The notes beneath the pieces are model-generated. The model had not been told where the DNA came from. It did not search any database and was given only the letters and a program-made list of their open reading frames with translations. Shown one piece after another: positions 5,143 to 26,768 of a stretch of DNA of 64,000 bases. A program made the position numbers and the translations under genes. This stretch comes from Anaerovibrio lipolyticus LB2005 (GTDB lineage Bacteria; Bacillota; Negativicutes; Selenomonadales; Selenomonadaceae): NCBI RefSeq assembly GCF_000621545.1, contig NZ_JHYA01000004.1:1-64000 (forward strand). The letters run 5' to 3'. Positions within the stretch are counted from its first letter, which is position 1. Each line of letters opens with the position of its first letter.

Positions 5143-6757
<1,615 letters not shown>

Positions 6758-14681: not shown

Positions 14682-15044
14682 TCATAAATCTTTTTTCATG
14701 GCTGTGGCCTTAAAACTCATATCTATTAATACTTCCAGCATTTTCTTATTGGCTTTCCGTAAATCAAGACTAATCCAATGCTGCTTGCTCATATGATAAG
14801 CAGGATAAATACCATCCTCTCTGAGTAAATCCTCCCGCATGGATACAGGGGCCTTCATATTAATCACTGTAATAATATGGTCGTCATCTATACCCAAATA
14901 ACTGGCGGAAATATCCATAAACAGACAAAACCATTTTTTGCTGACCCGATGGCGGAAAACAAAAGCATCCGAGTCATCCCATGGATAGTCTTCCTCTACG
15001 CCATATGTGCTTCGTATATATTCTATAGCCTGTTTCTTGGTCAT
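14682..15044 (-). CDS. MmcQ/YjbR-family protein
   Basis: This 120-aa protein has the CyaY-like YjbR fold, judged from YPWDDSDAFVFRHR, KKWFCLFMDI and the HWISLDL segment. The family is possibly DNA-binding, with no established biochemical role. The start at 15044 lies four bases after the stop of the RND permease gene, so the two are co-transcribed and probably translationally coupled. The upstream extension in the same frame lies within the permease gene and is rejected. Confidence 0.85.
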   Translation of the reverse strand: MTKKQAIEYIRSTYGVEEDYPWDDSDAFVFRHRVSKKWFCLFMDISASYLGIDDDHIITVINMKAPVSMREDLLREDGIYPAYHMSKQHWISLDLRKANKKMLEVLIDMSFKATAMKKDL

Positions 15045-15048
15045 AATA

Positions 15049-18000
15049 TCACTGCTTTTCCTTTTCCACGTGGTACATAGCTGCATACATGGTAGGTAAC
15101 ACCAAAAGTGTCAGCACTGTTGCCACAAACAGGCCACTGGCAATAGCTACTGCCATTGGTCCCCAGAAGGTACTGAACATCAATGGTATCATACCGAGAA
15201 TTGCAGCTGCCGCTGTAAGCATTATCGGTCTGAAGCGCATTACCGCCGAATCCACTACTGCATCCCAAGGAGTTTCACCATCCTCCAAATGCTTTTGTAT
15301 CTGGTCAATCAAAATAACCGAGTTACGTATTATCATACCGCTGAGGGCCAGAACACCCAGAATGGCAACAAAGCCCATGGCCTTGTTAAACAGCAGCATT
15401 CCAGCCGCTACACCAATAAGTCCCAACGGCGCAGTAAGTACGGTTAGAATCATCAGCTTAGCGTTTTTAAGCTGGAACATAAGCAAAGTCATAATTGCAA
15501 ATATCATAGCTGGAACAGGCTTCGTAATATTCCCCATGGATTTTTGGCTGTCTTTTAAAGCACCGGCAGCCTCAATCCTATAACCTGGAGGCAGATTATC
15601 TGAAATGTCCTTAACAGCTTCCAACGCCTTTTTAGTTGCGTCATTAGCAGTGCCGGAAAGAATATTGCCCTGAACAATTACGCATGGGACTAATCTCTCG
15701 CGACCAATAACACCATTTTCAGTTCTAAGGGAAATATCCGCCAGCTGCTCCAATGGCACATAGCCACGACCAGTATAAACAGGCAATTCTTTCACCTTGG
15801 ATATATCAGTGCGATCTATCTCTGACATCTCCAGAACTATATCCACCGTACGGTCCCCCTTATAGAACTGGGCTACCGTGGCACCGGTGAGCTCAGTATA
15901 TACCATCTTGGAAACAGCTTGGGCTGTCAACCCCATGGACTTCAACTTATCTTGATCATATTCAAGATGAAGGACCTTGCTTTTTTCGTGCCAATTAAGG
16001 TGAATTTCTGTGTTATTTTCATCCTGGGCTACACGATCAGCCACCTGTTCACCAATTTCCCGAACCTTCTCCTTATCACTGCCGTAAACCTTCAGCATAA
16101 TAGGATAATCTGAAGGCGGACCAGTCTGAATGAACTTTATATCATGACGAGCCTCAGGGAAGTTATTTTCAAGCTCCTCCCTGATTTTCCTGGTCAGTTC
16201 TGCTCGATGTTCAGCGTCCTTGGATACCACAATAAACTGGGAATAATTGTCGATTGGAGGCTCTGGAGTGAAAGGAAGCACAAATCGTGGAGCTCCTTCT
16301 CCCACATAGTAGCTGTAGTTTTCAATTTCATCAGCGTGTTGATCCAGAAAATCAGCAAAGCGTTTGGACACTTCCTCGGATTTTTTTAGGGAGGCACCAT
16401 CATTTAGACGCATGGAAATAATTATTTCCGGCCTGGTGGATGGAGGGAAAAATTCATTACGAACCAACTGCATTCCCACAATTGAAATGGCAAATATTCC
16501 CACAGTGGCCGTAAGAACCAGCTTTTTGTGAGTCAGGAACCATGTTAAAACATTGCGGAATAATGTATAGAATTTGCTCTGATACTGAACCGTCTCCCCC
16601 TCATCATTGCGCTTAACATCTACCTTAATAAGATGATAGCCATATAAAGGTGCTACCATGACAGACACAATCCAGGAAATAAGCAATGCCATAGAAATAA
16701 CTGGGAACAAGGCACTACAGAATTCTGATGCCAACCCTGCAGAAAATCCGACGGGAATAAAGCCGGCACATGTAATAAGGGTACCTGTAAGCATTGGCTT
16801 GGCCGTAGCCTTAAAAGCATAGCAGGCCGCCTCGAAACGGTCCAGCCCGGCTTCCAGCTTTACGCTCATCATCTCTACGGCTATTATGGCATCATCAACC
16901 AATAAACCTAAGGCGATAATCAAGGCGCCAAGGGATACCTTTTGAAGGTCAATGCCCAACATGTACATACCGCAAAAAACTGCGGCTAGCACCAAAGGAA
17001 TACAAAGAGCCACTACCATGCCAGTTCTGACGCCCAAACTTAGGAAGCTGACGGCCAGCACTATAATAATGGCCTCCCGTAGCGTGCTGATAAATTCATC
17101 AATGGATTCCTCAACCACCTTTGGTTGGTCTGAAACCTGATGAACTTCCAGTCCCACTGGAAGCATTTCATTTACAGATTTCATAAGGCTGCCTAAATCT
17201 TCACCCAAGGTAATAATATTCTGCCCTGGCTCCATGGATACGGCAACACCTACTGCTGGCTCACCATTATAAAACATCTTTGGGTCAGATGGCTCTGCAT
17301 AACGTATTTCCACCTTGGCAATATCACCCAGACGAAGCACCTTACCCCCCGCATTAATAGGGGCATTTTTTATATCATCAATATTTTCAAAGGTTCCGGA
17401 ATATCTTAAATAAACATTGTCCGTACTGGTCTCTATCATGCCGGAGGGGGTCATCTGATTTTGCCCCTTTAATGCATCAGACAGAGCTGTTGGACTTATG
17501 CCCAGCTCAGCCAGCTTGGCACTTTCTATTTCCACATAGACCTTTTCAGTCTGAACGCCAACCAATTCAACCTTCTGAACGCTTTTTACATTTGCCAGAA
17601 TCATGCGGCGAATTTCTTCCGCCTGCTGTCGCATTTCCTCATATGAAAACCCATCGCCGGTTACAGCATACAGGGAACCATATACATCATCAAAGCGGTC
17701 ATTGAAATAAGGGCCATAAACACCCTCGGGCAAATCCTTTTCCACATCGTGACAGAAATTTCTTACATCACGCCATGAATCACGAACATCACCATTATAA
17801 TCATCCTTTAAAAGCACATGAATAACAGTGGTACCATCCCGGGTGGTGCTCTTAACATAATCTATACCCGGCAAATCATTTATTTTTGATTCCAGCTTAT
17901 CAGTGACCTGCTGCTCCATCTGCTCTGCAGTGGCCCCAGGCCAGGCGGCAGTAACTACCATATCCCTGATAGTAAAATTAGGGTCCTCCATGCGTCCTAA

Positions 18001-18096
18001 TTTTATATAGGAAAAGATGCCCCCTACCACAAGTACAATAATGAAGTACCATACCAGTGCCCGGTTTTTCAGGGATACTTCTGTTAGATTAATCAT
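15049..18096 (-). CDS. RND efflux transporter permease subunit
   Basis: This 1015-aa inner-membrane pump of the AcrB/HAE family exports drugs or other amphiphiles with proton motive force. The N terminus is typical (one membrane helix, then LGRMEDPNFTIRDMVVTAAW). The proton-relay acidic pair lies in LGLLVDDAIIAVE in the fourth membrane helix. Two large periplasmic loops separate the helices. It requires an outer membrane, supporting a diderm host. The adaptor gene precedes it with one base between. No TolC-type outer-membrane channel gene is in this operon, so a channel encoded elsewhere must be used. Confidence 0.95.
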   Translation of the reverse strand: MINLTEVSLKNRALVWYFIIVLVVGGIFSYIKLGRMEDPNFTIRDMVVTAAWPGATAEQMEQQVTDKLESKINDLPGIDYVKSTTRDGTTVIHVLLKDDYNGDVRDSWRDVRNFCHDVEKDLPEGVYGPYFNDRFDDVYGSLYAVTGDGFSYEEMRQQAEEIRRMILANVKSVQKVELVGVQTEKVYVEIESAKLAELGISPTALSDALKGQNQMTPSGMIETSTDNVYLRYSGTFENIDDIKNAPINAGGKVLRLGDIAKVEIRYAEPSDPKMFYNGEPAVGVAVSMEPGQNIITLGEDLGSLMKSVNEMLPVGLEVHQVSDQPKVVEESIDEFISTLREAIIIVLAVSFLSLGVRTGMVVALCIPLVLAAVFCGMYMLGIDLQKVSLGALIIALGLLVDDAIIAVEMMSVKLEAGLDRFEAACYAFKATAKPMLTGTLITCAGFIPVGFSAGLASEFCSALFPVISMALLISWIVSVMVAPLYGYHLIKVDVKRNDEGETVQYQSKFYTLFRNVLTWFLTHKKLVLTATVGIFAISIVGMQLVRNEFFPPSTRPEIIISMRLNDGASLKKSEEVSKRFADFLDQHADEIENYSYYVGEGAPRFVLPFTPEPPIDNYSQFIVVSKDAEHRAELTRKIREELENNFPEARHDIKFIQTGPPSDYPIMLKVYGSDKEKVREIGEQVADRVAQDENNTEIHLNWHEKSKVLHLEYDQDKLKSMGLTAQAVSKMVYTELTGATVAQFYKGDRTVDIVLEMSEIDRTDISKVKELPVYTGRGYVPLEQLADISLRTENGVIGRERLVPCVIVQGNILSGTANDATKKALEAVKDISDNLPPGYRIEAAGALKDSQKSMGNITKPVPAMIFAIMTLLMFQLKNAKLMILTVLTAPLGLIGVAAGMLLFNKAMGFVAILGVLALSGMIIRNSVILIDQIQKHLEDGETPWDAVVDSAVMRFRPIMLTAAAAILGMIPLMFSTFWGPMAVAIASGLFVATVLTLLVLPTMYAAMYHVEKEKQ

Positions 18097-18097
18097 A

Positions 18098-19177
18098 TTA
18101 TTGGTCCTCCATCAGTCTTACCTTCTGGCCCTGGCGCAGCTTGTGTACACCTGCTGTGACCACAATATCTCCAACATTAAGGCCCATTACCCGCACGGAA
18201 TTATTACCAATTTCTTCAAATTTTATGTCCTTGAGACTTACAGTGTCCGTATTCTTATCAACCACCCAAACCTGGGAGGTGTCGTTAATCTGATAAATAG
18301 CAGACAGTGGCAATACCAGTCCATCCCTATTATCTCTGTCTCTCTCCTGACACTTTACACTGGCAGTCATGCCCAGCTGCATTCCCTTTGGCGGATTTTG
18401 AATGGAAATTCTGACCTTATAGGTACGGGAAACAGAATCAGCCATTGGGGAAATTTCCCTAACTGTTCCATTTACATTAACGCCTTTTAATGCCCAAAAG
18501 GAAACCTGGACGGTCCTGCCCAGCTCCACATCACCAAGGTGGTTCTCCGGAATATTTATTTCCACCTCAAGCTCATTGGTCTGCACCAAAGTCAATACAG
18601 TCTGACCAGCGCCAACCACCTGGCCCGCCTCAGCTGTGACGGATGAAATTACTCCTGAAGCAGAGGCCACCAGTGCTGTATAGCCTAAAGCATTATGGCC
18701 GGTTGTAGCACCAGCTACTGCCTGATTGTACTGAGCAAGAGCAGAATCATAAGCAGTCTGATACTGGTCAAGAACCATGGCTGGAATTGCTTCCTGGGCG
18801 TAAAGCTGCTGATAACGGCTCAAATTTGACTGGGCCAAATCAAGCTGTGCTTTGGCAGCTGCCACCTGGGCATCCCCCTGGTTAGACTGCTGCACCACAT
18901 CACGAGGATCAATGGACATAAGAACATCCCCGGAATTTACATGGTCACCCACCTGAACATTACGATTGAGAATTCGTCCCCCAACCTGAAAGGACATATT
19001 TGTTTCATAACGGCCTCTTACAGTACCAGTATAGGTACCCTCCACATTTATATCATGCTCCCCCACCTGCTGGGTCTTAACCAGCTGAGGCTTCTGTTCT
19101 TCATTATCCTTACCACAGCCGGACAACAATGAGGCCATCAATAATATAGATAGTAAAATAGCTATGAGCTTTTTCAC
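18098..19177 (-). CDS. RND efflux periplasmic adaptor lipoprotein
   Basis: This is a membrane-fusion protein of the AcrA/MexA type, 359 aa. It has a lipobox LLSGC with the lipidated Cys at residue 21. A lipoyl/barrel half (YTGTVRGRYETNMSFQVGGR) is followed by a helical hairpin of about 80 residues (DAQVAAAKAQLDLAQSNLSR), the second lipoyl half and the beta-barrel domain. It bridges the pump and the outer-membrane channel. Its start overlaps the marR end by 4 bp (ATGA). Confidence 0.95.
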   Translation of the reverse strand: MKKLIAILLSILLMASLLSGCGKDNEEQKPQLVKTQQVGEHDINVEGTYTGTVRGRYETNMSFQVGGRILNRNVQVGDHVNSGDVLMSIDPRDVVQQSNQGDAQVAAAKAQLDLAQSNLSRYQQLYAQEAIPAMVLDQYQTAYDSALAQYNQAVAGATTGHNALGYTALVASASGVISSVTAEAGQVVGAGQTVLTLVQTNELEVEINIPENHLGDVELGRTVQVSFWALKGVNVNGTVREISPMADSVSRTYKVRISIQNPPKGMQLGMTASVKCQERDRDNRDGLVLPLSAIYQINDTSQVWVVDKNTDTVSLKDIKFEEIGNNSVRVMGLNVGDIVVTAGVHKLRQGQKVRLMEDQ

Positions 19178-19638
19178 TTTATGTCACTCCCCTTTTTTCC
19201 AAACACCGTCTCGAAATTTGCCATGCCCAAGCGTGTAGCCATAATACCTATTCCTTTAATCATAAACTCGCTTTCGTCTTTAGAAAAGCCACCAGCCACA
19301 TAGTCCATGATTTTCTTTACTATGTCCTTGATTACAGGCTCCAATTTCTTTCCGTCCTCAGTTAGAAACAGCCTTTTCAAGCGACGGTCCACCTCATCAC
19401 GTTTGCGGTAAAGCATACCCTTTTTCTCGAGGATTTTAATCACCCGGGTTATAGCCGCCTTATCCACATGAAGTAATGAAGTCATATCATCCTGACTACA
19501 GCCCTCCTTATCGTATAACATTAACATCAAGGAAAATTCCGAATAGGTCAGCCCTAAATCCATAGTGGCTTCCACCACCAAAGACTGAACCCGTCTTCTT
19601 ATTATTCCAAAATTGATAGATGCGTTATAATAGTCCAT
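19174..19638 (-). CDS. MarR-family transcriptional regulator
   Basis: This 154-aa winged-helix regulator has the MarR core: LMLMLYDKEGCSQDDMTSLL, VDKAAITRVIKILEKKGML and the wing KRDEVDRRLKRLFLTEDGKK. It is the first gene of the efflux operon and overlaps the adaptor gene by 4 bp. It is thus very likely the ligand-responsive repressor of its own operon. CGGAGG precedes the ATG. Its leader has two hairpins (19668-19734). Confidence 0.94.
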   Translation of the reverse strand: MDYYNASINFGIIRRRVQSLVVEATMDLGLTYSEFSLMLMLYDKEGCSQDDMTSLLHVDKAAITRVIKILEKKGMLYRKRDEVDRRLKRLFLTEDGKKLEPVIKDIVKKIMDYVAGGFSKDESEFMIKGIGIMATRLGMANFETVFGKKGSDIK

Positions 19639-19667
19639 GTATTTGCCTCCGAAATTATATTAATCAA

Positions 19668-19734
19668 GATGAAAGCATACGGGCTTTCATCAGCCCTTAC
19701 ACGAAATCTAAAGTTCATCTTCATCCTTTAGATT
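19668..19734 (-). promoter_or_regulatory. Two consecutive stem-loops in the marR leader
   Basis: Minus-strand RNA forms a 9-bp stem AATCTAAAG/CTTTAGATT (arms 19726-19734 and 19705-19713, 12-nt loop). A second 9-bp stem GATGAAAGC/GCTTTCATC (arms 19683-19691 and 19668-19676, 6-nt loop) follows, about 30 nt before the marR start. The loop of the first contains GATGAAGATGAA, which could compete for the TTTCATC arm of the second. No U tract is present. Confidence 0.6.
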
Positions 19735-19899
19735 CGATTCACTAAGATTTCATAGTAAAAAGAAGTTGATTATTTCAACATTTACATTCTTAATTCTAAC
19801 AAACTCATAATTCATATTCAATAAGAATGGGATTAAATCCTACTATTCTCCCGTATAATTAAAAAATAACTACCTAAGTTGAGTGACCATATATTTTTA

Positions 19900-19950
19900 G
19901 ACACGAAAAAAGCTGTAAAAACGATAGGCGTTCGTTTTTACAGCCTTTTT
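19900..19950 (-). terminator. Strong bidirectional terminator of the small RNA
   Basis: A perfect 13-bp stem GCTGTAAAAACGA/TCGTTTTTACAGC (19912-19924 and 19932-19944) with a 7-nt loop is followed by T runs on both strands. On the minus strand it closes the small RNA. No gene is seen on the plus strand upstream that would need it. Confidence 0.85.
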
Positions 19951-20108
19951 CTTCCATTCATTTATATAATGAAAGTGGGTAAATAAAAGAGAGGGGTTTA
20001 TATGCGACACAGGGGAATGTCGCTTATAAGGGGTATATCAAAGTTCAAGCAGGAGAAAAAGGATTATATCTGGGGATCAGATGTTGTCCTTGGCTTTCCC
20101 TTTGACAT
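19905..20108 (-). ncRNA. Probable small regulatory RNA with C-rich loops
   Basis: A transcript of about 200 nt is bounded by a consensus promoter (20114-20142) and a 13-bp terminator hairpin (19912-19944). It has no convincing reading frame. Hairpin 1 has AAGGA/TCCTT and ATCTG/CAGAT stems (20059-20091) closing a loop with CCC. Hairpin 2 has a GCGACA/TGTCGC stem (20004-20009 and 20018-20023) closing the loop TTCCCCTG. Single-stranded CCCC motifs lie on either side of it (20030-20033 and 19993-19996). This is the layout of Firmicute sRNAs that block Shine-Dalgarno sequences through UCCCC motifs. I could not match it to 6S RNA or another named family. Confidence 0.6.
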
Positions 20109-20113
20109 GTCTT

Positions 20114-20142
20114 ATTATATGATTATCTTATGAGTATGTCAA
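20114..20142 (-). promoter_or_regulatory. Consensus promoter of the small RNA
   Basis: A perfect TTGACA (20137-20142) and perfect TATAAT (20114-20119) are separated by exactly 17 nt on the minus strand. The nearest downstream gene, marR, is 480 bp away and lies beyond a strong terminator. The promoter therefore drives a short RNA. Confidence 0.8.
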
Positions 20143-20245
20143 GGAACTTTTTGGATTTTTTTTGATTTTTTTTAAAAATTCTTGGAACATCTTCCAAAAT
20201 GTACATATATAAAGCACTCAAACTATCCCATAACATCCCCACCAT
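20123..20245 (-). CDS. Possible 40-aa small protein
   Basis: An open frame encodes MVGMLWDSLSALYMYILEDV followed by a basic, amphipathic C-terminal half (KKNQKKSKKFLDILIR). Initiation signals are weak: AAAGG lies 2 nt from the first ATG or 11 nt from the alternative ATG at 20236. A 13-codon frame just upstream has a good AAGGAG site and could couple to it. The 3' end overlaps the -35 box of the small RNA promoter. I regard it as doubtful. The rest of 20246-20370 contains only a perfect palindrome TTACCTATAGGTAA (20284-20297). Confidence 0.2.
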   Translation of the reverse strand: MVGMLWDSLSALYMYILEDVPRIFKKNQKKSKKFLDILIR

Positions 20246-20370
20246 TACCTTTGAACCCCAGCATAATACTCCTTATAAATCCTTTACCTATAGGTAATTA
20301 CACAATTAATGGTTATATTTTGTACACCTATCTATCTAAGCTGCTGGTGATCCAATATAGCAATTTTACC

Positions 20371-20421
20371 CAATAAAAAAAGTGGCACTTTTTTGAGTAT
20401 CTTTTCCAAAAGTACCACTTT
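20371..20421 (-). terminator. Intrinsic terminator of the M18 aminopeptidase gene
   Basis: The arms at 20379-20392 and 20408-20421 form a 7+6-bp stem around one mismatch (AAAGTGG/CCACTTT and ACTTTT/AAAAGT). Seven Ts follow on the minus strand. Confidence 0.8.
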
Positions 20422-20473
20422 ATCAACAAGCAAAATACTATTTTTACACAATCCTACGCCATTTTTCCCCTAG

Positions 20474-20528
20474 TTATCCACACTTATGAACAGTTATTCA
20501 CATAAAAAATGTGGATAACTGTGAATAA
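20474..20528. other. Cluster of four DnaA boxes
   Basis: TTATCCACA (20474-20482), TTATTCACA (20494-20502), TGTGGATAA (20510-20518) and TGTGAATAA (20520-20528) fall within 55 bp. They are arranged as two head-to-head pairs. The cluster lies downstream of the aminopeptidase gene, 28 kb from dnaA. Two boxes match the consensus exactly and two differ at one position. Confidence 0.7.
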
Positions 20529-20546
20529 TGCTTGGCTTCTGAAATC

Positions 20547-21848
20547 TTAATACCGGAATAATTCCCTAATAACCCGGCACAATGATATTTGATCAGCTGC
20601 CCCCATAGTCTCTCTGGCAGAGTGCATAGCCAAAATAGGTACTCCTATATCCACAGTACGTACAGGAACCAGAGCAGATGCTATGGATCCCAAAGTGGCA
20701 CCTCCGGGCATATCAGAACGATTAACATAGTGCTGACAAGGTATATCGTTCCCCTGACGGCACAGGCCCTTTACCATGGCTACAGCCTCTGCATCACAGG
20801 CGTAGCTTTGAGAGGAGGCCTGCTTAATAACAAAGCCCTCGTTCAACAAAGGACGATTGGTAGGATCAGTCTTATCAGGATAATTTGGATGGAGACCATG
20901 GGCAACGTCCACAGACAGCATAAAGCCACCATTGATCCCCTGCCACATCTGCTCCCGGCTATAACCCATACAGGTATATATACGCTCCAAAAGCTGCATA
21001 AGGTTGGCCGAGGCTGCTCCCTGCTTGGTACGACTGCCGATTTCCTCATTATCAAAGAGGGCTATTATATTTAGTCCTGCCCCCAGTGTTTCAGTTATAC
21101 CCTTTAGACAAGCTACCACAGAGGTAATATTGTCAAGGCGTGGTGAGGAAACCAGTTCTCCTGCCACTCCCAACTGACAGCCGGCTTCGTAAGGATAAAT
21201 GTTTAGCTCGTATGAAAGAATATCCTCCTTGGACACAGCCAACTCACTTACCAGCAGATCCTCCAAAAAGGCCTTGGCTGTATCCTTCCCATTTTCTTTA
21301 CCAAATACTGCCGCCAATGGCAGCATATCCTTTTGTTTATTAAGAGCCACACCCTCATTGATTTTCTTGTTCATGTGGATGGCCAGTGACGGAATGGTGA
21401 TCAATGGACGGGCAAAATCTATAAGCTCAGTCACGGGATTCATGGCATCCTTTCCCGCCAATACCACCTTCCCCGCAATAGACAGCGGCCTATCCAGCCA
21501 GGAATATAATATAGCCCCACCATATCCCTCAGTATTCAACAGACCGTAGCCATCCTTAATAACACCGGCCTCCGGCTTAATGCGAAAGCCGGGAAAATCC
21601 GTATGGGCTGCTGCCAGCTTCAGACTGTTCTTGGCTGTAAGATCACCATTTCCCAAGGTAAAGGCAAAAATAGACGAGCCATAAACCTTGGTGAAATACC
21701 TTCCATATCTTTGAAGCTCCCAGCCCTCAGTCCAGTCCAGCTCCTGAAAGCCTGCATTCAAAAGCTGCTCTGAGGCAGCACTGGCTGTATGCCAGGGAGA
21801 GGGAGATTTCTTAATAAATTCCAACAAATCTATTATATCGCCGTACAT
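20547..21848 (-). CDS. M18-family metalloaminopeptidase
   Basis: This is a cytosolic zinc aminopeptidase of the aspartyl-aminopeptidase (M18) family, which trims N-terminal residues from peptides. The 433-aa length fits. Metal- and active-site segments visible are AAAHTDFPGF (about residue 77), LFDNEEIGSRTKQGA (the acidic metal ligand region) and SVDVAHGLHPNYPDKTDP. The C-terminal part is PILAMHSARETMGAADQ, where the last ligand His lies. GGAGGT lies 6 nt before the ATG. Confidence 0.93.
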   Translation of the reverse strand: MYGDIIDLLEFIKKSPSPWHTASAASEQLLNAGFQELDWTEGWELQRYGRYFTKVYGSSIFAFTLGNGDLTAKNSLKLAAAHTDFPGFRIKPEAGVIKDGYGLLNTEGYGGAILYSWLDRPLSIAGKVVLAGKDAMNPVTELIDFARPLITIPSLAIHMNKKINEGVALNKQKDMLPLAAVFGKENGKDTAKAFLEDLLVSELAVSKEDILSYELNIYPYEAGCQLGVAGELVSSPRLDNITSVVACLKGITETLGAGLNIIALFDNEEIGSRTKQGAASANLMQLLERIYTCMGYSREQMWQGINGGFMLSVDVAHGLHPNYPDKTDPTNRPLLNEGFVIKQASSQSYACDAEAVAMVKGLCRQGNDIPCQHYVNRSDMPGGATLGSIASALVPVRTVDIGVPILAMHSARETMGAADQISLCRVIRELFRY

Positions 21849-21887
21849 ATTCCTACCTCCAATATAGTCTCCTATTCAAATTTCAGA

Positions 21888-23084
21888 TTAAGCCCCTTGT
21901 TCATTACTGTGTACAGGAATAATATACCACTGACAGGTTATTATAGCCAGCACAAAGCCTATAAGCATCATTACTGCCATGGGAACACCGCTGTCAGTGC
22001 CAAAAATACCCACAATCGGCATCATTACTGCTCCTAATATCATGGAGGAGCATCCCAGCATAGCAGAGGCACTGCCCGCATTTCTGCCCTGGGATGAAAG
22101 GGCCAGGGAAAAGCTGGCGGCACCCACAACAGATAAAGGTGCTACAGCAAACAAAAGCAATGCTACAATCACTGCAAAGGGAGCATTTAAGAAAAAAGCC
22201 CCTATCAGAAGTGCCGACATTACTGCCTGAATACATAGAGAATATTTCAGCATAATCTCATCCCGTACCCTGCCAGCTAACTTGCTGGGTATACCCCCCG
22301 TAAACAAAAGGGAAGCACCAATGCCTCCAAAAATATAGCTATACACCTGAGGAGAAACCTCATATATGCCCTGTAATACAAAGGATGAACAGCCTATATA
22401 TGTAAAAAAAGCAGCAAATTCAAACATTTGTACAAAGCAATGGCCCATAAAATACTTATTTCTCATAAGTATAGGAAAGGTCAAGAGAGTTCTGGTGATA
22501 TTTTTCAGTCTACGCTCCACAGGCAGACTTTCCTTGAAGATTACCGTTGCCCCGGCCATAACAAGGCCGATAATTGCCAATACCATAAAAACATGGCGCC
22601 AGCTGCCAAAGGCCAGTATCTGACCGCCCAAAACCGGAGCCAAAATAGGAGCCAGACCATTTACCATCATTAATATGGAAAAGAATTTTGTCAGCTCAGC
22701 ACCCTTACACATATCACGGGCAATTGCTCTGGATATTACAATTCCACAGGCACCGGCAAAGCCCTGGATAAAGCGGGCCGCCAGAAAAACCCATATATTG
22801 GTTGCCACAGCACAAACTACAGACACTGCCATAAATACCAGCATTCCCAATAAAAGTGGCAGCTTGCGCCCCTTCATATCGCTAATAGGTCCTGCAAATA
22901 TCTGACCAATGGACATACCCAGCATGGTCATAGTCAAGGTCATCTGTGCAATTGAAGTGCTGATGGCATAATCCTCCTGCATCACCGGCAGGGCTGGCAA
23001 ATACATATCTGTAGCCAATGGTGCCATGGCAGACATTATTCCCAAAAATATAACCAGCCAAAAAGAGCTCTTTGATTTACTCAT
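21888..23084 (-). CDS. Bcr/CflA-family MFS drug efflux protein
   Basis: This major-facilitator antiporter (398 aa, about 12 membrane helices) is of the Bcr/CflA type. The N-terminal MAPLATDMYLPALPVMQ and the loop-2/3 motif GPISDMKGRKLPLLLG are diagnostic. The substrate cannot be told; relatives export bicyclomycin, chloramphenicol or sulfonamides. The start at 23084 follows GGAGGT by 6 nt. The longer frame to 23150 reads through a terminator hairpin and is not used. An attenuator lies directly upstream. Confidence 0.93.
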   Translation of the reverse strand: MSKSKSSFWLVIFLGIMSAMAPLATDMYLPALPVMQEDYAISTSIAQMTLTMTMLGMSIGQIFAGPISDMKGRKLPLLLGMLVFMAVSVVCAVATNIWVFLAARFIQGFAGACGIVISRAIARDMCKGAELTKFFSILMMVNGLAPILAPVLGGQILAFGSWRHVFMVLAIIGLVMAGATVIFKESLPVERRLKNITRTLLTFPILMRNKYFMGHCFVQMFEFAAFFTYIGCSSFVLQGIYEVSPQVYSYIFGGIGASLLFTGGIPSKLAGRVRDEIMLKYSLCIQAVMSALLIGAFFLNAPFAVIVALLLFAVAPLSVVGAASFSLALSSQGRNAGSASAMLGCSSMILGAVMMPIVGIFGTDSGVPMAVMMLIGFVLAIITCQWYIIPVHSNEQGA

Positions 23085-23103
23085 TAAACTACCTCCTGAA
23101 TTT

Positions 23104-23202
23104 AAAGAAAAAGAAGCCAATCCCTGATCAGCTTCCCCTAAAATATACATATAAAACCATTGTCTGTGGCTTAATTATATACCAAATAGTACTCCTTTGT
23201 AA
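23104..23202 (-). promoter_or_regulatory. Promoter and terminator-type attenuator ahead of the Bcr/CflA gene
   Basis: On the minus strand a -10 TATAAT (23174-23179) with a weak -35 TTACAA (23197-23202, 17-nt spacer) starts a leader of about 85 nt. Within it, arms 23126-23135 and 23113-23122 form a 10-bp stem with a 3-nt loop. The run TTTTTCTTT (23112-23104) follows, which makes a complete intrinsic terminator 12 nt before the GGAGGT site. A short ATG frame of 10 codons precedes and enters the hairpin. Nothing else is seen in 23203-23300. Confidence 0.65.
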
Positions 23203-23323
23203 GCAATTTTTTCTTCCGCGGGTATGCTGCTCCATTATCTTCTTTGGATTTTTACATGAATATGGGCAAATATTCTAATAATTGTGATAATGATATACTT
23301 TTGGTATTTTTTATTATTCTATC

Positions 23324-23352
23324 TTGTATTAACTGGTACATTACGATATAAT
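23324..23352 (+). promoter_or_regulatory. Promoter of the DeoR-family gene
   Basis: TTGTAT (23324-23329) lies 17 nt before a perfect TATAAT (23347-23352). Downstream, a 7-bp inverted repeat ATACTCA/TGAGTAT (23363-23369 and 23404-23410) flanks a smaller AT-rich dyad and could be an autoregulatory operator. Confidence 0.6.
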
Positions 23353-23448
23353 TAACACAAACATACTCATAATATTATCATCTTTTTATGATTACTTTAT
23401 GTGTGAGTATTTGATGAGTTTATTTTTCGTTAGAATACAGGTGAATGA

Positions 23449-24222
23449 ATGAAAATCAATCGTCTCCGTAAAATTCAGGAACTGCTTGAAGAGAAAAAAA
23501 GCATTTCCATTAATGATCTGTGTACCACCTTTGATGTATCCAAAAATACCATACGCCGTGATATTGCCGAGCTGGAAAAGCGGGGCACCATCAGCAAGGT
23601 ATATGGTGGCATTGTGCTTCAGGAGCAGGAGGCTCCACAGGCCAAAGCTCCAACCATGGTACCAGAAGATAACAGTGACAAGATTCACAAGCAAAAAATT
23701 GCCCGTATGGCAGCCAGTCTGGTACAGGATGACGATGTTATCTACATAGATTCCGGTACCACTACCATGCACATGATGCCTTATCTGGAGGATAAGCACA
23801 ACATTACCATCGTTACTGCCAGCATTCACGTTATAAACATTGCGGCGGCATCTGCAAAATTCAACATTATTGCCACCGGTGGCACCATCTACGCCCCTAC
23901 CAAGGCCTTTGTGGGACCAAGCGTGCTGAACTGTCTGAAGCAGTACAACATTTCCAAGATTTTCATTTCCAGTACAGGGATTTCCATAGAAAACGGACTT
24001 ACCACTGCTTCTCCACTGGAATGTGATATCAAGCGTTATCTGGTGGACAAAACCGGTAAGAAAATTCTCATGGTGGACAGCACAAAAATTGATTCCGCAT
24101 CCCTTATTTCCTTCTGCAATCTGGACGAAATTGACTGCATTGTAGTGGATAAGGAGTTGCCAGCCCGTTATAAGGAATTCTTCGCAGAACATAATATAGA
24201 AGTTATCGTATGTGATGACTAA
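23449..24222 (+). CDS. DeoR-family transcriptional regulator
   Basis: This 257-aa repressor has the DeoR helix-turn-helix at residues 18-55 (SINDLCTTFDVSKNTIRRDI). It also has the sugar-phosphate sensor domain with DSGTTTMHM and ISSTGISIENGLTT. Family members sense phosphorylated sugars or polyols. No sugar operon adjoins it, so its regulon is not evident. The glp operon in this window is one candidate, because GlpR is a DeoR member, but that is only a guess. AGGTGA lies 4 nt before the ATG, and a terminator follows. Confidence 0.92.
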   Translation: MKINRLRKIQELLEEKKSISINDLCTTFDVSKNTIRRDIAELEKRGTISKVYGGIVLQEQEAPQAKAPTMVPEDNSDKIHKQKIARMAASLVQDDDVIYIDSGTTTMHMMPYLEDKHNITIVTASIHVINIAAASAKFNIIATGGTIYAPTKAFVGPSVLNCLKQYNISKIFISSTGISIENGLTTASPLECDIKRYLVDKTGKKILMVDSTKIDSASLISFCNLDEIDCIVVDKELPARYKEFFAEHNIEVIVCDD

Positions 24223-24230
24223 AGGATAAC

Positions 24231-24275
24231 AAAAATGCGACCTGCAGATATTGAATCTGTAGGTCGCATTTTTAT
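24231..24275 (+). terminator. Bidirectional terminator after the DeoR-family gene
   Basis: The arms at 24231-24249 and 24255-24273 pair over 19 positions with one mismatch, around a 5-nt loop. They end in TTTTTATT on the plus strand and in a T run on the minus strand. Confidence 0.9.
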
Positions 24276-24290
24276 TGTCATATTATAATA

Positions 24291-24423
24291 ATATGGCGAA
24301 AACCATCTTTGGACCGCTCGCGCTTAGTATTTTGCCTAGCGGTACTAAGTTCACCCTGCGCTTTCAGCTTGGATTCACTAAGTACCAAGGCAAAAAATGT
24401 CCTTCAGATGGTCCCCGCCATAT
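24291..24423. repeat. 133-bp palindromic element (MITE-like)
   Basis: The ends are imperfect inverted repeats of about 24 bp. ATATGGCG, ACCATCT and GGAC are shared in order, with small substitutions between them (24291-24314 against 24400-24423). The interior also pairs: TTTTGCCT with AGGCAAAA, and GGTACT with AGTACC. The whole element folds as one long imperfect hairpin. It lies between the convergent ends of the DeoR gene and the glutamate synthase operon and contains no reading frame. Confidence 0.55.
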
Positions 24424-24428
24424 AAATA

Positions 24429-26768
24429 TTACTTGTTATATGTGCGATACATCTTGATTGGCTCAGGATTGTCATTTATACTCCATACACCACATGGGCA
24501 TACACCAGCACAAATACCGCACCCAATACATTTATTTGGATCTGATACATAGGTCCAGGAGCCATCCTCATTTTCTATGCGGCTGATGGCCTTTTCCGGA
24601 CATGATTCCAGACACATCTTACAGTCACGGCAAGTACCGCAGCTTACGCAACGGGTATGATCATCTGCCGGGTCCCCCAGCTGACAATGATGGCACTTTT
24701 CAAAATAAGCCTTGGAAAGACGCTCTGCCGGAATCTTTTCCTTTTCAGGAAATGGAACATATTCCTTTCCCATTACATACAGATCAGCATAGTAAGCGGC
24801 CTTGATACCATCACCAATGGCATCGGTTAAACGACCAGGCTTAATAACATCACCGGCAGCAAAGACCCCCGGCAAAATTGATTTATCCTTATTGGTAATC
24901 AGCCAGCTGTCCCGGAACTTCTTAATAGAATCATCCTCTGGCAGGAAATCCAAAATTGGTGCCTCACCTATGGATACAATTACCTCATCTGCTGGGATAA
25001 AGCGTCCGTCATTGGCATAAACTCCATCCTTGGTAATCTTCTCCGTGAAGAACGGCCATACCAGCTTGCCGCCCCGGCCTTCCACATACTGAATTTCATC
25101 AGCAAAGGCCGCCGGCTTCTGCACATCTACAGCCACCACGGATTCAGCCCCCATATCAAAGGCCGCACGGCAGGTGTCCATACCGGAGTTACCGCAACCG
25201 ATTACCACAACACGCTTGCCAACCTTTGGATTTTCACTACGATTTACCTTCTTAAGGAAATCCAAACCCATAGTAAGCAGCTCCTTGCCCTCCCAGTTAA
25301 AGTAACGGGATTCATGTCCGCCATTGGCAATTATTACTGCATCATAGGTATCCTGAAAATGCTTAAAGCTATCCTTGTCCACCTTGCAATTTGGAACGAA
25401 TTTTACACCTATTTCTTCTATGCGTTTTAATTCTGCCTCCAAAAGATCATGGGAAAGCCTGCCTCTAGGAATAACCTGCTCCAGCTTACCACCCATTTTC
25501 TCTGCATCATCAAAGACGAATACCTCATGTCCCTTACGGGCCAGCTGCCAGGCTGCGGAAAGACCGGCTACACCACCGCCTATGATGCCCACCTTCTTGC
25601 CAGTGGACACAGCTGGCTTCTTCACCTTGGTAAAAGCAGAAAGATAACCCAATGGACCAATCTGAATTGCCTCATCAATGGTGCCACGGGTACAGCCATC
25701 CATACAAGGGTTAGGACAAACACTGCCACATACAGAGCCTGGGAATGGAGTGTACTGAAGCTCCAGCTCAATGGCCTCCTGCAATCTGCTCTGACGAATC
25801 AAATTATAGCGAAGCTGGGTAGGAATGCCAGTAGGACAGCTGAACTCACAAGGAGCCGCATACTTGGCATTATCCCAGCTTGGAACTCGTAAACGATAAA
25901 GGCCATTGGAAATGGTGTTATGAACCGCAAAATCATCCATGGCAACGTCAGAGAAAATACCTCCCTTTACCCATTCCTGGGTGCGGAACTCCTTTATAGT
26001 CATTTTCTTTGATGGAGTGGCACTCTTTTCCTCAAAGGTAAGAGGACGGAGCTTTTTCCACTGACTCCACTGGGAAAGCTCACCCTTTAACTCCTGACGC
26101 TCTATTTTGCCAAGGAATTCATCCATGCCGGAGTTGAGGAAATCAATATCCTCCTGCTCCAGCTCCAGACATTTAATGTCCTTTGGATAGGTGGATACAG
26201 GACCACGGACGTAAACCACGCCACCTACCATGCCTACGCAGGCCCGCTCCCCGAGAACAGACTCAAATTGTTCTGAATCGTAGCCACAGACGATGGCCCG
26301 GCCCCCTCCCATAAACTCAAAGGAGAAGGAACCTGTATTTTTCAAAATCCAAAGCTCCGGCTCTTCGTAAAGTGGGTCATGCTTCATCAGAGAACCACTG
26401 CGGGTACCAGCACGACCACCGATGAAAATCTTACCACCAGCGGAGCAATGGCCCGCAGTATCACCAGCGTCACCCTTTACGGTGATAACGCCACCAGCAT
26501 TAAGCCAGCCCACATCAGCGGAGGTGGAGCCTTCCACCACGATCTCCGTATTTGGCAGGCACATGGAGCCCACACGCTGACCCGCATTTGTAACGTGGAA
26601 GGTGAGTTTTTTTCCTTCACTGTTCCATAACGGACCACCTATATCATGCTGACCAGAAGCCGCAATTTCAAACTCAGTTTCTCCAGACCGTACAGCTGCT
26701 TCAATTTGAAGGAGCAGGTCTTGGGTGGACATACGCTCATGTCCCTTCATTGTATCAATTTTAAACAT
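24429..26768 (-). CDS. Split glutamate synthase: GXGXG domain fused to GltD-like oxidoreductase and ferredoxin
   Basis: This 779-aa fusion has three parts. Residues about 40-220 are the GXGXG beta-helix that in large GOGATs ends the alpha subunit (many Gly, e.g. GGVITVKGDAGDTAG). Residues about 300-690 are a GltD-type small subunit, with an N-terminal cysteine region (CEFSCPTGIP, CGSVCPNPC), an FAD fold GIIGGGVAGLSAAW and an NAD(P) fold VVVIGCGNSGMDT. Residues about 690-775 hold cysteine clusters of the ferredoxin type (CVSCGTCRDCKMC, CIGCGICAGVCPCG). It feeds electrons to the FMN subunit encoded upstream. AAGGAG precedes the ATG. Confidence 0.9.
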   Translation of the reverse strand: MFKIDTMKGHERMSTQDLLLQIEAAVRSGETEFEIAASGQHDIGGPLWNSEGKKLTFHVTNAGQRVGSMCLPNTEIVVEGSTSADVGWLNAGGVITVKGDAGDTAGHCSAGGKIFIGGRAGTRSGSLMKHDPLYEEPELWILKNTGSFSFEFMGGGRAIVCGYDSEQFESVLGERACVGMVGGVVYVRGPVSTYPKDIKCLELEQEDIDFLNSGMDEFLGKIERQELKGELSQWSQWKKLRPLTFEEKSATPSKKMTIKEFRTQEWVKGGIFSDVAMDDFAVHNTISNGLYRLRVPSWDNAKYAAPCEFSCPTGIPTQLRYNLIRQSRLQEAIELELQYTPFPGSVCGSVCPNPCMDGCTRGTIDEAIQIGPLGYLSAFTKVKKPAVSTGKKVGIIGGGVAGLSAAWQLARKGHEVFVFDDAEKMGGKLEQVIPRGRLSHDLLEAELKRIEEIGVKFVPNCKVDKDSFKHFQDTYDAVIIANGGHESRYFNWEGKELLTMGLDFLKKVNRSENPKVGKRVVVIGCGNSGMDTCRAAFDMGAESVVAVDVQKPAAFADEIQYVEGRGGKLVWPFFTEKITKDGVYANDGRFIPADEVIVSIGEAPILDFLPEDDSIKKFRDSWLITNKDKSILPGVFAAGDVIKPGRLTDAIGDGIKAAYYADLYVMGKEYVPFPEKEKIPAERLSKAYFEKCHHCQLGDPADDHTRCVSCGTCRDCKMCLESCPEKAISRIENEDGSWTYVSDPNKCIGCGICAGVCPCGVWSINDNPEPIKMYRTYNK

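Follow-up and report, generated by a model that had tools for sequence, protein, structure and literature searches.

A putative small RNA gene with conserved, unpaired C-rich elements in the genus Anaerovibrio

Anatomy of the sRNA gene

The window analyzed here, 64,000 nt of the genome of Anaerovibrio lipolyticus LB2005 (contig NZ_JHYA01000004.1, positions 1 to 64,000), carries on its minus strand, behind an M18 aminopeptidase gene, a putative small RNA (sRNA) gene with the parts listed below; the 16 species compared comprise clade A (ten species) and clade B (six species).

20114..20142, minus strand: promoter TTGACA-17-TATAAT (promoter scan)
19905..20108, minus strand: sRNA of about 204 nt (full-length covariance match 20108-19905, 233.7 bits)
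20036..20107, minus strand: hairpin 1, with outer stem, inner stem and apical stem-loop (fold, compensatory changes)
20072..20075, minus strand: apical CCCC of hairpin 1, partly paired and unconserved (absent from L013, L014, L015 and clade B)
20051..20056, minus strand: UCUCCU in hairpin 1, within the 3' strand of its asymmetric internal loop (no variation in clade A)
20030..20033, minus strand: C-rich region 1, UACCCCUU, in the linker of the two hairpins (predicted to be unpaired with a probability of about 1.0; 15/16)
20004..20023, minus strand: hairpin 2, GCGACAUUCCCCUGUGUCGC, with CCCC in the loop (identical in 15/16)
19984..19998, minus strand: C-rich region 3 with U-rich tail, AACCCCUCUCUUUUA, unpaired (15/16)
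19905..19951, minus strand: terminator hairpin (fold and conservation)

The promoter, composed of TTGACA (20142-20137), a 17-nt spacer and TATAAT (20119-20114), matches the sigma-70 consensus at 12/12 positions, which confirms the element named in the original prediction. It was the sole 12/12 site among the 29 promoter-like sites in 15000-25000, with runners-up at 10/12, and the total of 29 was close to the shuffled mean of 24.8. A-tracts lie directly upstream, and the -35 box with its adjoining bases, TTGACATACTCAT, was kept in 13 of the 16 loci of the genus, with one or two changes in the other three (L019-L021). A search of the 16 genomes for TTGACATACTCAT with at most one mismatch gave 134 matches versus 50 for the reversed pattern, an excess that is uninterpretable because the pattern includes the -35 box. 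Regulator boxes, scored in the 16 promoters against consensus sequences that we assumed, were as groups near the shuffle level; individual scores at or above the shuffled 95th percentile, namely cre-like (9/10 in L014, 8/10 in L012 and L013), PerR-like (11/14 in L007, L012 and L016), Fur-like (10/14 in L018 and L021) and Rex-like (10/14 in six promoters), were set aside as evidence of regulation.

As judged from the -10 box, the 5' end of the transcript is predicted near 20108. The sRNA stretch folded at -62.5 kcal/mol, as compared with a shuffled mean of -29.6 (z -8.66; 0/200 shuffles equal), in the order hairpin 1, CCCC linker, hairpin 2, single-stranded CCCCUCUCUUUUA, a weak hairpin and the terminator. 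The CCCC motifs previously placed at 19993-19996 and 20030-20033 are correct, and of the two hairpins said to display CCC(C), the one at 20004-20023 indeed folds (-9.4, z -5.65), whereas 20059-20091 is only the upper part of 20107-20036, whose apical stem-loop (20068-20082) holds CCC in its loop in the window species. When hairpin 1 was truncated to 20107-20041, with the end of its 3' strand missing, it folded little better than shuffled sequences (z -1.73; 12/200 equal). The 13-bp terminator stem noted before is also present (19944-19912), flanked by T-runs on both sides and listed by the simple scan on the plus strand only; on the minus strand, TTTTTTC can pair with an A-run, which gives a stem of 20 bp and a loop of 7 nt (-24.7 kcal/mol, z -8.2). 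Judged from the sequence, the gene has the own promoter and the intrinsic terminator that characterize C-rich sRNAs directed against Shine-Dalgarno (SD) sequences. In the five species folded, the C-rich regions had predicted unpaired probabilities of 0.91-1.00, lower values being obtained only for the ACCCAC of clade A (0.57-0.59) and, in L001, for the apical CCCC (0.75), and the predicted structure displays at least two conserved unpaired C-rich regions, as is characteristic of anti-SD sRNAs.

Distribution and genomic context

The sRNA was detected in all 16 Anaerovibrio genomes (the window genome G000 and 15 relatives) by BLAST, by the full covariance model and by a core model. The full model scored 162-234 bits in these genomes, as compared with at most 34.4 bits in 173 other genomes of the family. 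It matched 37 of 189 genomes at E<=0.1. Of these, 21 lie outside the genus, and their matches were attributed to terminator similarity once six alignments from five of them had been viewed, which were terminator-driven or incoherent. BLAST at E<=0.1 matched 41 of 100 genomes, comprising the 16 of the genus and 25 others, whose short matches (E 0.003-0.1) were disregarded as fortuitous. The core model, which excludes the terminator, gave no match in 364 other genomes of the class, on a scale at which the filters lose some weak matches; with its presence in 16/16 genomes of the genus, this bears out the suggestion of a lineage-specific gene. Furthermore, the exact 20-mer of hairpin 2, searched over 84,980 species, gave 15 stretches, all in genomes of the genus (G001-G015). 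The sRNA had no match on plasmids or in phage records, and the exact hairpin 2 pattern occurred 0 times in viral contigs. Each Anaerovibrio genome holds one strong copy; second matches are either weak (<=24 bits) or represent the terminator read on its mirror strand.

A scan against Rfam (4227 families), which includes a model of RsaE, yielded no family at the gathering cut-off, and matches to the sRNA were sub-threshold only. The scan was run at the gathering cut-off over the whole window, at E<=10 on the sRNA and at E<=5 on four relatives; the best score on the sRNA stretch was that of BTnc231, on the other strand, with 20.5 bits against a cut-off of 80.4. Among the papers found on small RNAs and transcriptomes of Anaerovibrio, on Negativicutes and on Veillonella Hfq, no title or abstract opening concerns an Anaerovibrio sRNA, and the gene has apparently not been described before.

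The M18 aminopeptidase gene lies upstream of the sRNA on the same strand in 15 of the 16 genomes, at a distance of about 300-580 nt; in the exception, L007, for which no M18 match was seen, the contig starts 736 nt ahead of hairpin 2. Downstream, clade A has MarR and membrane-fusion/efflux genes in nine species and, in L012, a DeoR-like gene in convergent orientation; all six clade B species have two convergent ABC transporter genes there. Since the following genes vary while the place behind M18 is kept, the sRNA is not tied to the gene behind it. Of 23 loci with an M18 gene from other genera, none contained such a promoter followed by a CCCC cluster within 900 nt behind that gene.

Two further observations concern the region next to the M18 gene. 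A hairpin behind it, at 20372-20424, is missing from the simple terminator scan. In addition, five 9-mers that we take to be DnaA-box-like (TTATCCACA, TTATTCACA and TTATCAACA) lie within about 110 nt, at 20419-20528, just downstream of the gene, and this segment is possibly a DnaA-binding or titration site. Four or five of them are kept in the clade A loci L127-L130, and four copies of TTATCAACA occur in another genus (L133); none occurs in the clade B loci L131, L132 and L134, and 22 other loci have at most one degenerate match. Outside the cluster, the remainder of the loci contains 0-8 DnaA-box-like matches in about 4 kb.

Conservation and covariation of the structure

The core of the sRNA barely changes between the clades and consists of GAUAUACCCCUU, then GCGACAUUCCCCUGUGUCGC, then AACCCCUCUCUUUUA, then the terminator with the loop GCCUAU. 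The few deviations are UAAUCCUU instead of UACCCCUU in the linker of L011 (AAUCC for ACCCC), one linker change in L021, and two changes in L018, i.e. a G-to-A exchange in hairpin 2 that replaces a U-G pair by U-A, and a third C-rich motif that reads AAACCCUCUCUUUUA (CCC). Six of the seven pairs of hairpin 2 and 16 of the 19 counted pairs of the terminator never vary, and in neither was any pair changed on both sides in the 16 loci of the genus; it is the sequence itself that is held. The loop GCCUAU (19924-19929) is invariant in 16/16 genomes, although a terminator loop need not be conserved.

Hairpin 1, in contrast, has undergone much sequence change across the genus and retained its structure, with compensatory changes within clade A, within clade B and between the clades. 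In the apical stem of clade A, two of five pairs were changed on both sides, a count reached by 13/500 shuffles; it was taken over nine of the ten species (eight distinct sequences, L010 left out), with 100% of cells paired. In the clade B stems (95% of cells paired), three of 17 pairs were changed on both sides, all of them in the inner stem, as in only 1/500 shuffles. Between the clades, the outer stem shows an exchange of A-U for G-C, with five sequences changed on both sides. When the outer stem, hairpin 2 and the terminator were counted jointly, 467/500 shuffles reached the observed number of pairs changed on both sides, so that real covariation is confined to hairpin 1. The measure of further pair types was reached by 125/500 shuffles in clade A and 78/500 in clade B. 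The structures came from folds of these same sequences, which gives them an advantage over slid versions, and the second clade A helix (AAGGA/UCCUU) was left out of the counts because the aligner had shifted three rows there. The expectation that conserved hairpins with compensatory changes and invariant CCCC would be found thus held for hairpin 1 and for the near-invariant unpaired CCCC, but not for hairpin 2 and the terminator, which lack covariation.

The original prediction had regarded the apical CCC(C) of hairpin 1 as a functional motif, which this comparison does not bear out. Three clade A species out of ten lack it, their apical loops reading GAUGU (L013), UACGA (L014) or AAUUA (L015), and nothing corresponds to it in the apical part of the hairpin in the six clade B species, so that it is not the conserved motif. 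The place matching the internal loop UCUCCU of clade A is occupied in clade B by ACCCCUC.

Complementarity to SD sequences and candidate targets

We examined the words complementary to the C-rich elements at the starts of 617 genes, which had been chosen without using their SD sequences. AAGGGG occurred at SD positions at 2.95/kb versus 0.34/kb further upstream, AGGGGT at 1.62/kb versus 0.20/kb, and AGGAGA at 6.04/kb versus 0.15/kb. Same-letter permutations were as common or commoner at SDs (5/5 for GAGGGG, 11/14 for GAGAGG and 7/14 for AGGGGA), indicating that the match of the C-rich motifs to SDs is generic. For the linker segment, 26 of 200 leaders had a duplex energy below -11, as compared with 7.8 for shuffles; the mean duplex energy over the 200 leaders was not clearly better than that of shuffled segments, with 7 (H1), 6 (S1), 16 (S2) and 15 (S3) of 40 shuffles showing an equally low mean. 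When G000 was compared with G001, a clade B genome, over 146 ortholog pairs, no segment showed a clear excess of jointly strong sites over shuffles. The seed GAGAGGGG-N3..11-ATG was matched 121 times in the 16 genomes, a count that includes the sRNA's own complement, versus 73 times for the reversed control.

The best duplex predictions, made over a third of the organism's own genome, were thiD, a DJ-1 family protein and two genes presumed to encode an enoyl-CoA hydratase-like and a Tat-signal-like protein. Three of them were followed up. For thiD, six of ten leaders in clade A keep an AGAGAG-type site, whereas none of five in clade B has it at the SD; the two others keep G-rich but varying SDs. 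A recurrent site also precedes a gene that we take to be UDP-GlcNAc 2-epimerase-like in five of the six clade B genomes (L107-L111). Its leader contains GAGAGGGGTTTATG, most of which, GAGAGGGGTTTAT, is the exact complement of AUAAACCCCUCUC in the sRNAs of six of the ten clade A species; this site may be no more than the SD of the gene.

By biology, the most attractive candidate targets are the mRNAs of glycerol kinase. The window contains an FGGY kinase gene, presumably glycerol kinase (glpK), at 5143-6642 on the minus strand; glycerol kinase-like genes also lie in L336-L353, and most Anaerovibrio genomes carry two close paralogs, some in fragments. In 18/18 glpK leaders examined, out of 30 matches beginning at residue 1, AGGGGGAU stands 5-8 nt before the ATG, and it could form eight base pairs, including one G-U, with AUUCCCCU of hairpin 2. 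The shared run of 11 nt places the glpK leader only among the 14 best-conserved of 146 ortholog leaders, and glpK duplexes with the sRNA rank 19 to 180 of 746.

Discussion

RoxS/RsaE of Bacillus and Staphylococcus is described (PMC4409812) as a trans-acting sRNA with conserved groups of C and four C-rich regions proposed to pair with SDs. The Anaerovibrio sRNA likewise has four C-rich elements but no match to RoxS/RsaE in the Rfam scan, and whereas RoxS is common to two genera, it was found in one genus of another class. IsrR occurs throughout the genus Staphylococcus, and PMC9410917 ascribes to it three unpaired C-rich regions (two in loops, one in a linker), an intrinsic terminator, and first stems conserved in sequence with little covariation. 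The same paper gives IsrR two conserved Fur boxes and a poorly conserved terminator and H3, whereas no Fur box was seen in the 16 Anaerovibrio promoters with the consensus that we assumed, and the terminator is nearly invariant. FsrA of B. subtilis, whose C-rich motif binds the SD (as cited in PMC9410917), is alike in having such a motif and differs in that the Anaerovibrio sRNA has no visible Fur box. IsrR and FsrA were compared with the sRNA in sequence through the Rfam scan only. LhrC of Listeria binds Hfq and has three CU-rich sites that are redundant, one of them being the terminator loop (PMC4132741). It is multicopy, in contrast to the single strong copy here, and the terminator loop of the Anaerovibrio sRNA is conserved but, unlike that of LhrC, not C-rich. 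Since it has no Rfam match and no Fur box, is single-copy and belongs to another class, we did not file the sRNA with RoxS/RsaE, IsrR or LhrC; by analogy, it is best read as a separate, genus-restricted family working in the manner of these three.

We consider it likely, from the anatomy of the gene and the analogy with these systems, that the sRNA acts in trans by pairing with SD regions and lowering translation. We infer its transcription, Hfq binding, SD pairing and repression as follows. The sRNA would be transcribed from its own strong promoter and end at its own terminator, and the C-rich elements that it displays, four short unpaired stretches located in the hairpin 1 internal loop, between the hairpins, in the loop of hairpin 2 and before the terminator, would pair with the G-rich SD sequences of a set of mRNAs, which would block ribosome binding and thereby reduce translation. 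A U-rich stretch together with a U-tailed terminator is typical of Hfq-bound sRNAs; the presence of such a stretch after the last C-rich region, and of the U tail, makes Hfq binding likely, and Hfq is encoded in 16/16 genomes (in G005 cut by the contig end), so that the sRNA is probably Hfq-assisted. Since target prediction gave no clear excess over shuffles, the claim of SD pairing rests on anatomy and analogy.

The strict invariance of hairpin 2 and the terminator exceeds what SD pairing would need, and could reflect a bound protein. Hairpin 2, CUCUCUUUUA and the terminator loop might thus form a protein site, for Hfq, a cold-shock protein or another protein that the RNA titrates or by which it is carried, with SD pairing being secondary. 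This would agree with the lack of covariation in hairpin 2 and the terminator although the clades have diverged widely around them, and with the lack of a clear excess in the target predictions; stems kept in sequence with little covariation are also read as a possible protein site for IsrR (PMC9410917). We nevertheless regard a protein-binding or sponge RNA as rather unlikely: among the unpaired parts, those conserved best are rich in C and flanked by bases that pair with SD-like sequences, and the change of the internal loop between the clades exchanges one SD-complementary sequence for another, which is more in keeping with pairing than with a single fixed protein site. An iron-sparing sRNA under Fur, as an Anaerovibrio counterpart of IsrR or of FsrA, which is under Fur control, appears very unlikely. 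The sRNA is indeed rich in C and present throughout the genus, and the targets predicted for some clade A species include a gene for an iron-sulfur protein, but Fur-like 19-mers in the 16 promoters reach 10-11 matches, as compared with a shuffled mean of 11.1, for the consensus that we assumed.

The constant place of the sRNA behind the M18 gene, on the same strand, would suit a product of its 3' UTR or of read-through, or a mere attenuator of the MarR-efflux operon downstream. Both are highly improbable, since the sRNA has its own consensus promoter, a terminator-like hairpin lies between it and the M18 gene (20424-20372, minus strand, -17.5 kcal/mol, z -4.6 in the window), and the following genes differ and have the opposite orientation in 7 of the 16 genomes. 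That the locus instead encodes a small protein on the opposite strand is extremely unlikely. The original prediction had seen no good frame, and indeed none is conserved on either strand in the 16 species, the sense frames being short and not common to the set; in the window species, however, the plus strand does hold a frame of 43 aa (20002-20133, MRHRGMSLIRGIS...), with a perfect-looking, well-spaced SD, AGAGAGGGG. This SD looks fine because the complement of an anti-SD element resembles an SD. The ATG is present in only 6/16 species, where it opens frames of 22-43 aa, with indels and stops breaking the frame, and the sequence changes follow the base pairing of the other strand, along which the consensus promoter also points.

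The sRNA looks like a case of convergent evolution, in that a C-rich, multi-element sRNA in one genus of Hfq-bearing diderm Firmicutes follows the same logic as RoxS, IsrR and LhrC, but no homology to a described family was detected. With UCUCCU rewritten into ACCCCUC from clade to clade within a fixed architecture, the rewiring of sRNA target sets becomes open to testing. More speculatively, the sRNA might be a genus-wide hub for glycerol and propionate catabolism, abundant, Hfq-assisted and equipped with four anti-SD elements, which arose with a lipid-and-glycerol lifestyle; we consider this unlikely, but if it were true, the sRNA would set the translation of glycerol kinase and of genes that we take to belong to the propionate pathway, for a CoA-transferase and a glyoxalase-fold protein resembling methylmalonyl-CoA epimerase. 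Since A. lipolyticus is a lipolytic organism of the rumen, an RNA that controls its catabolism would be of practical interest.
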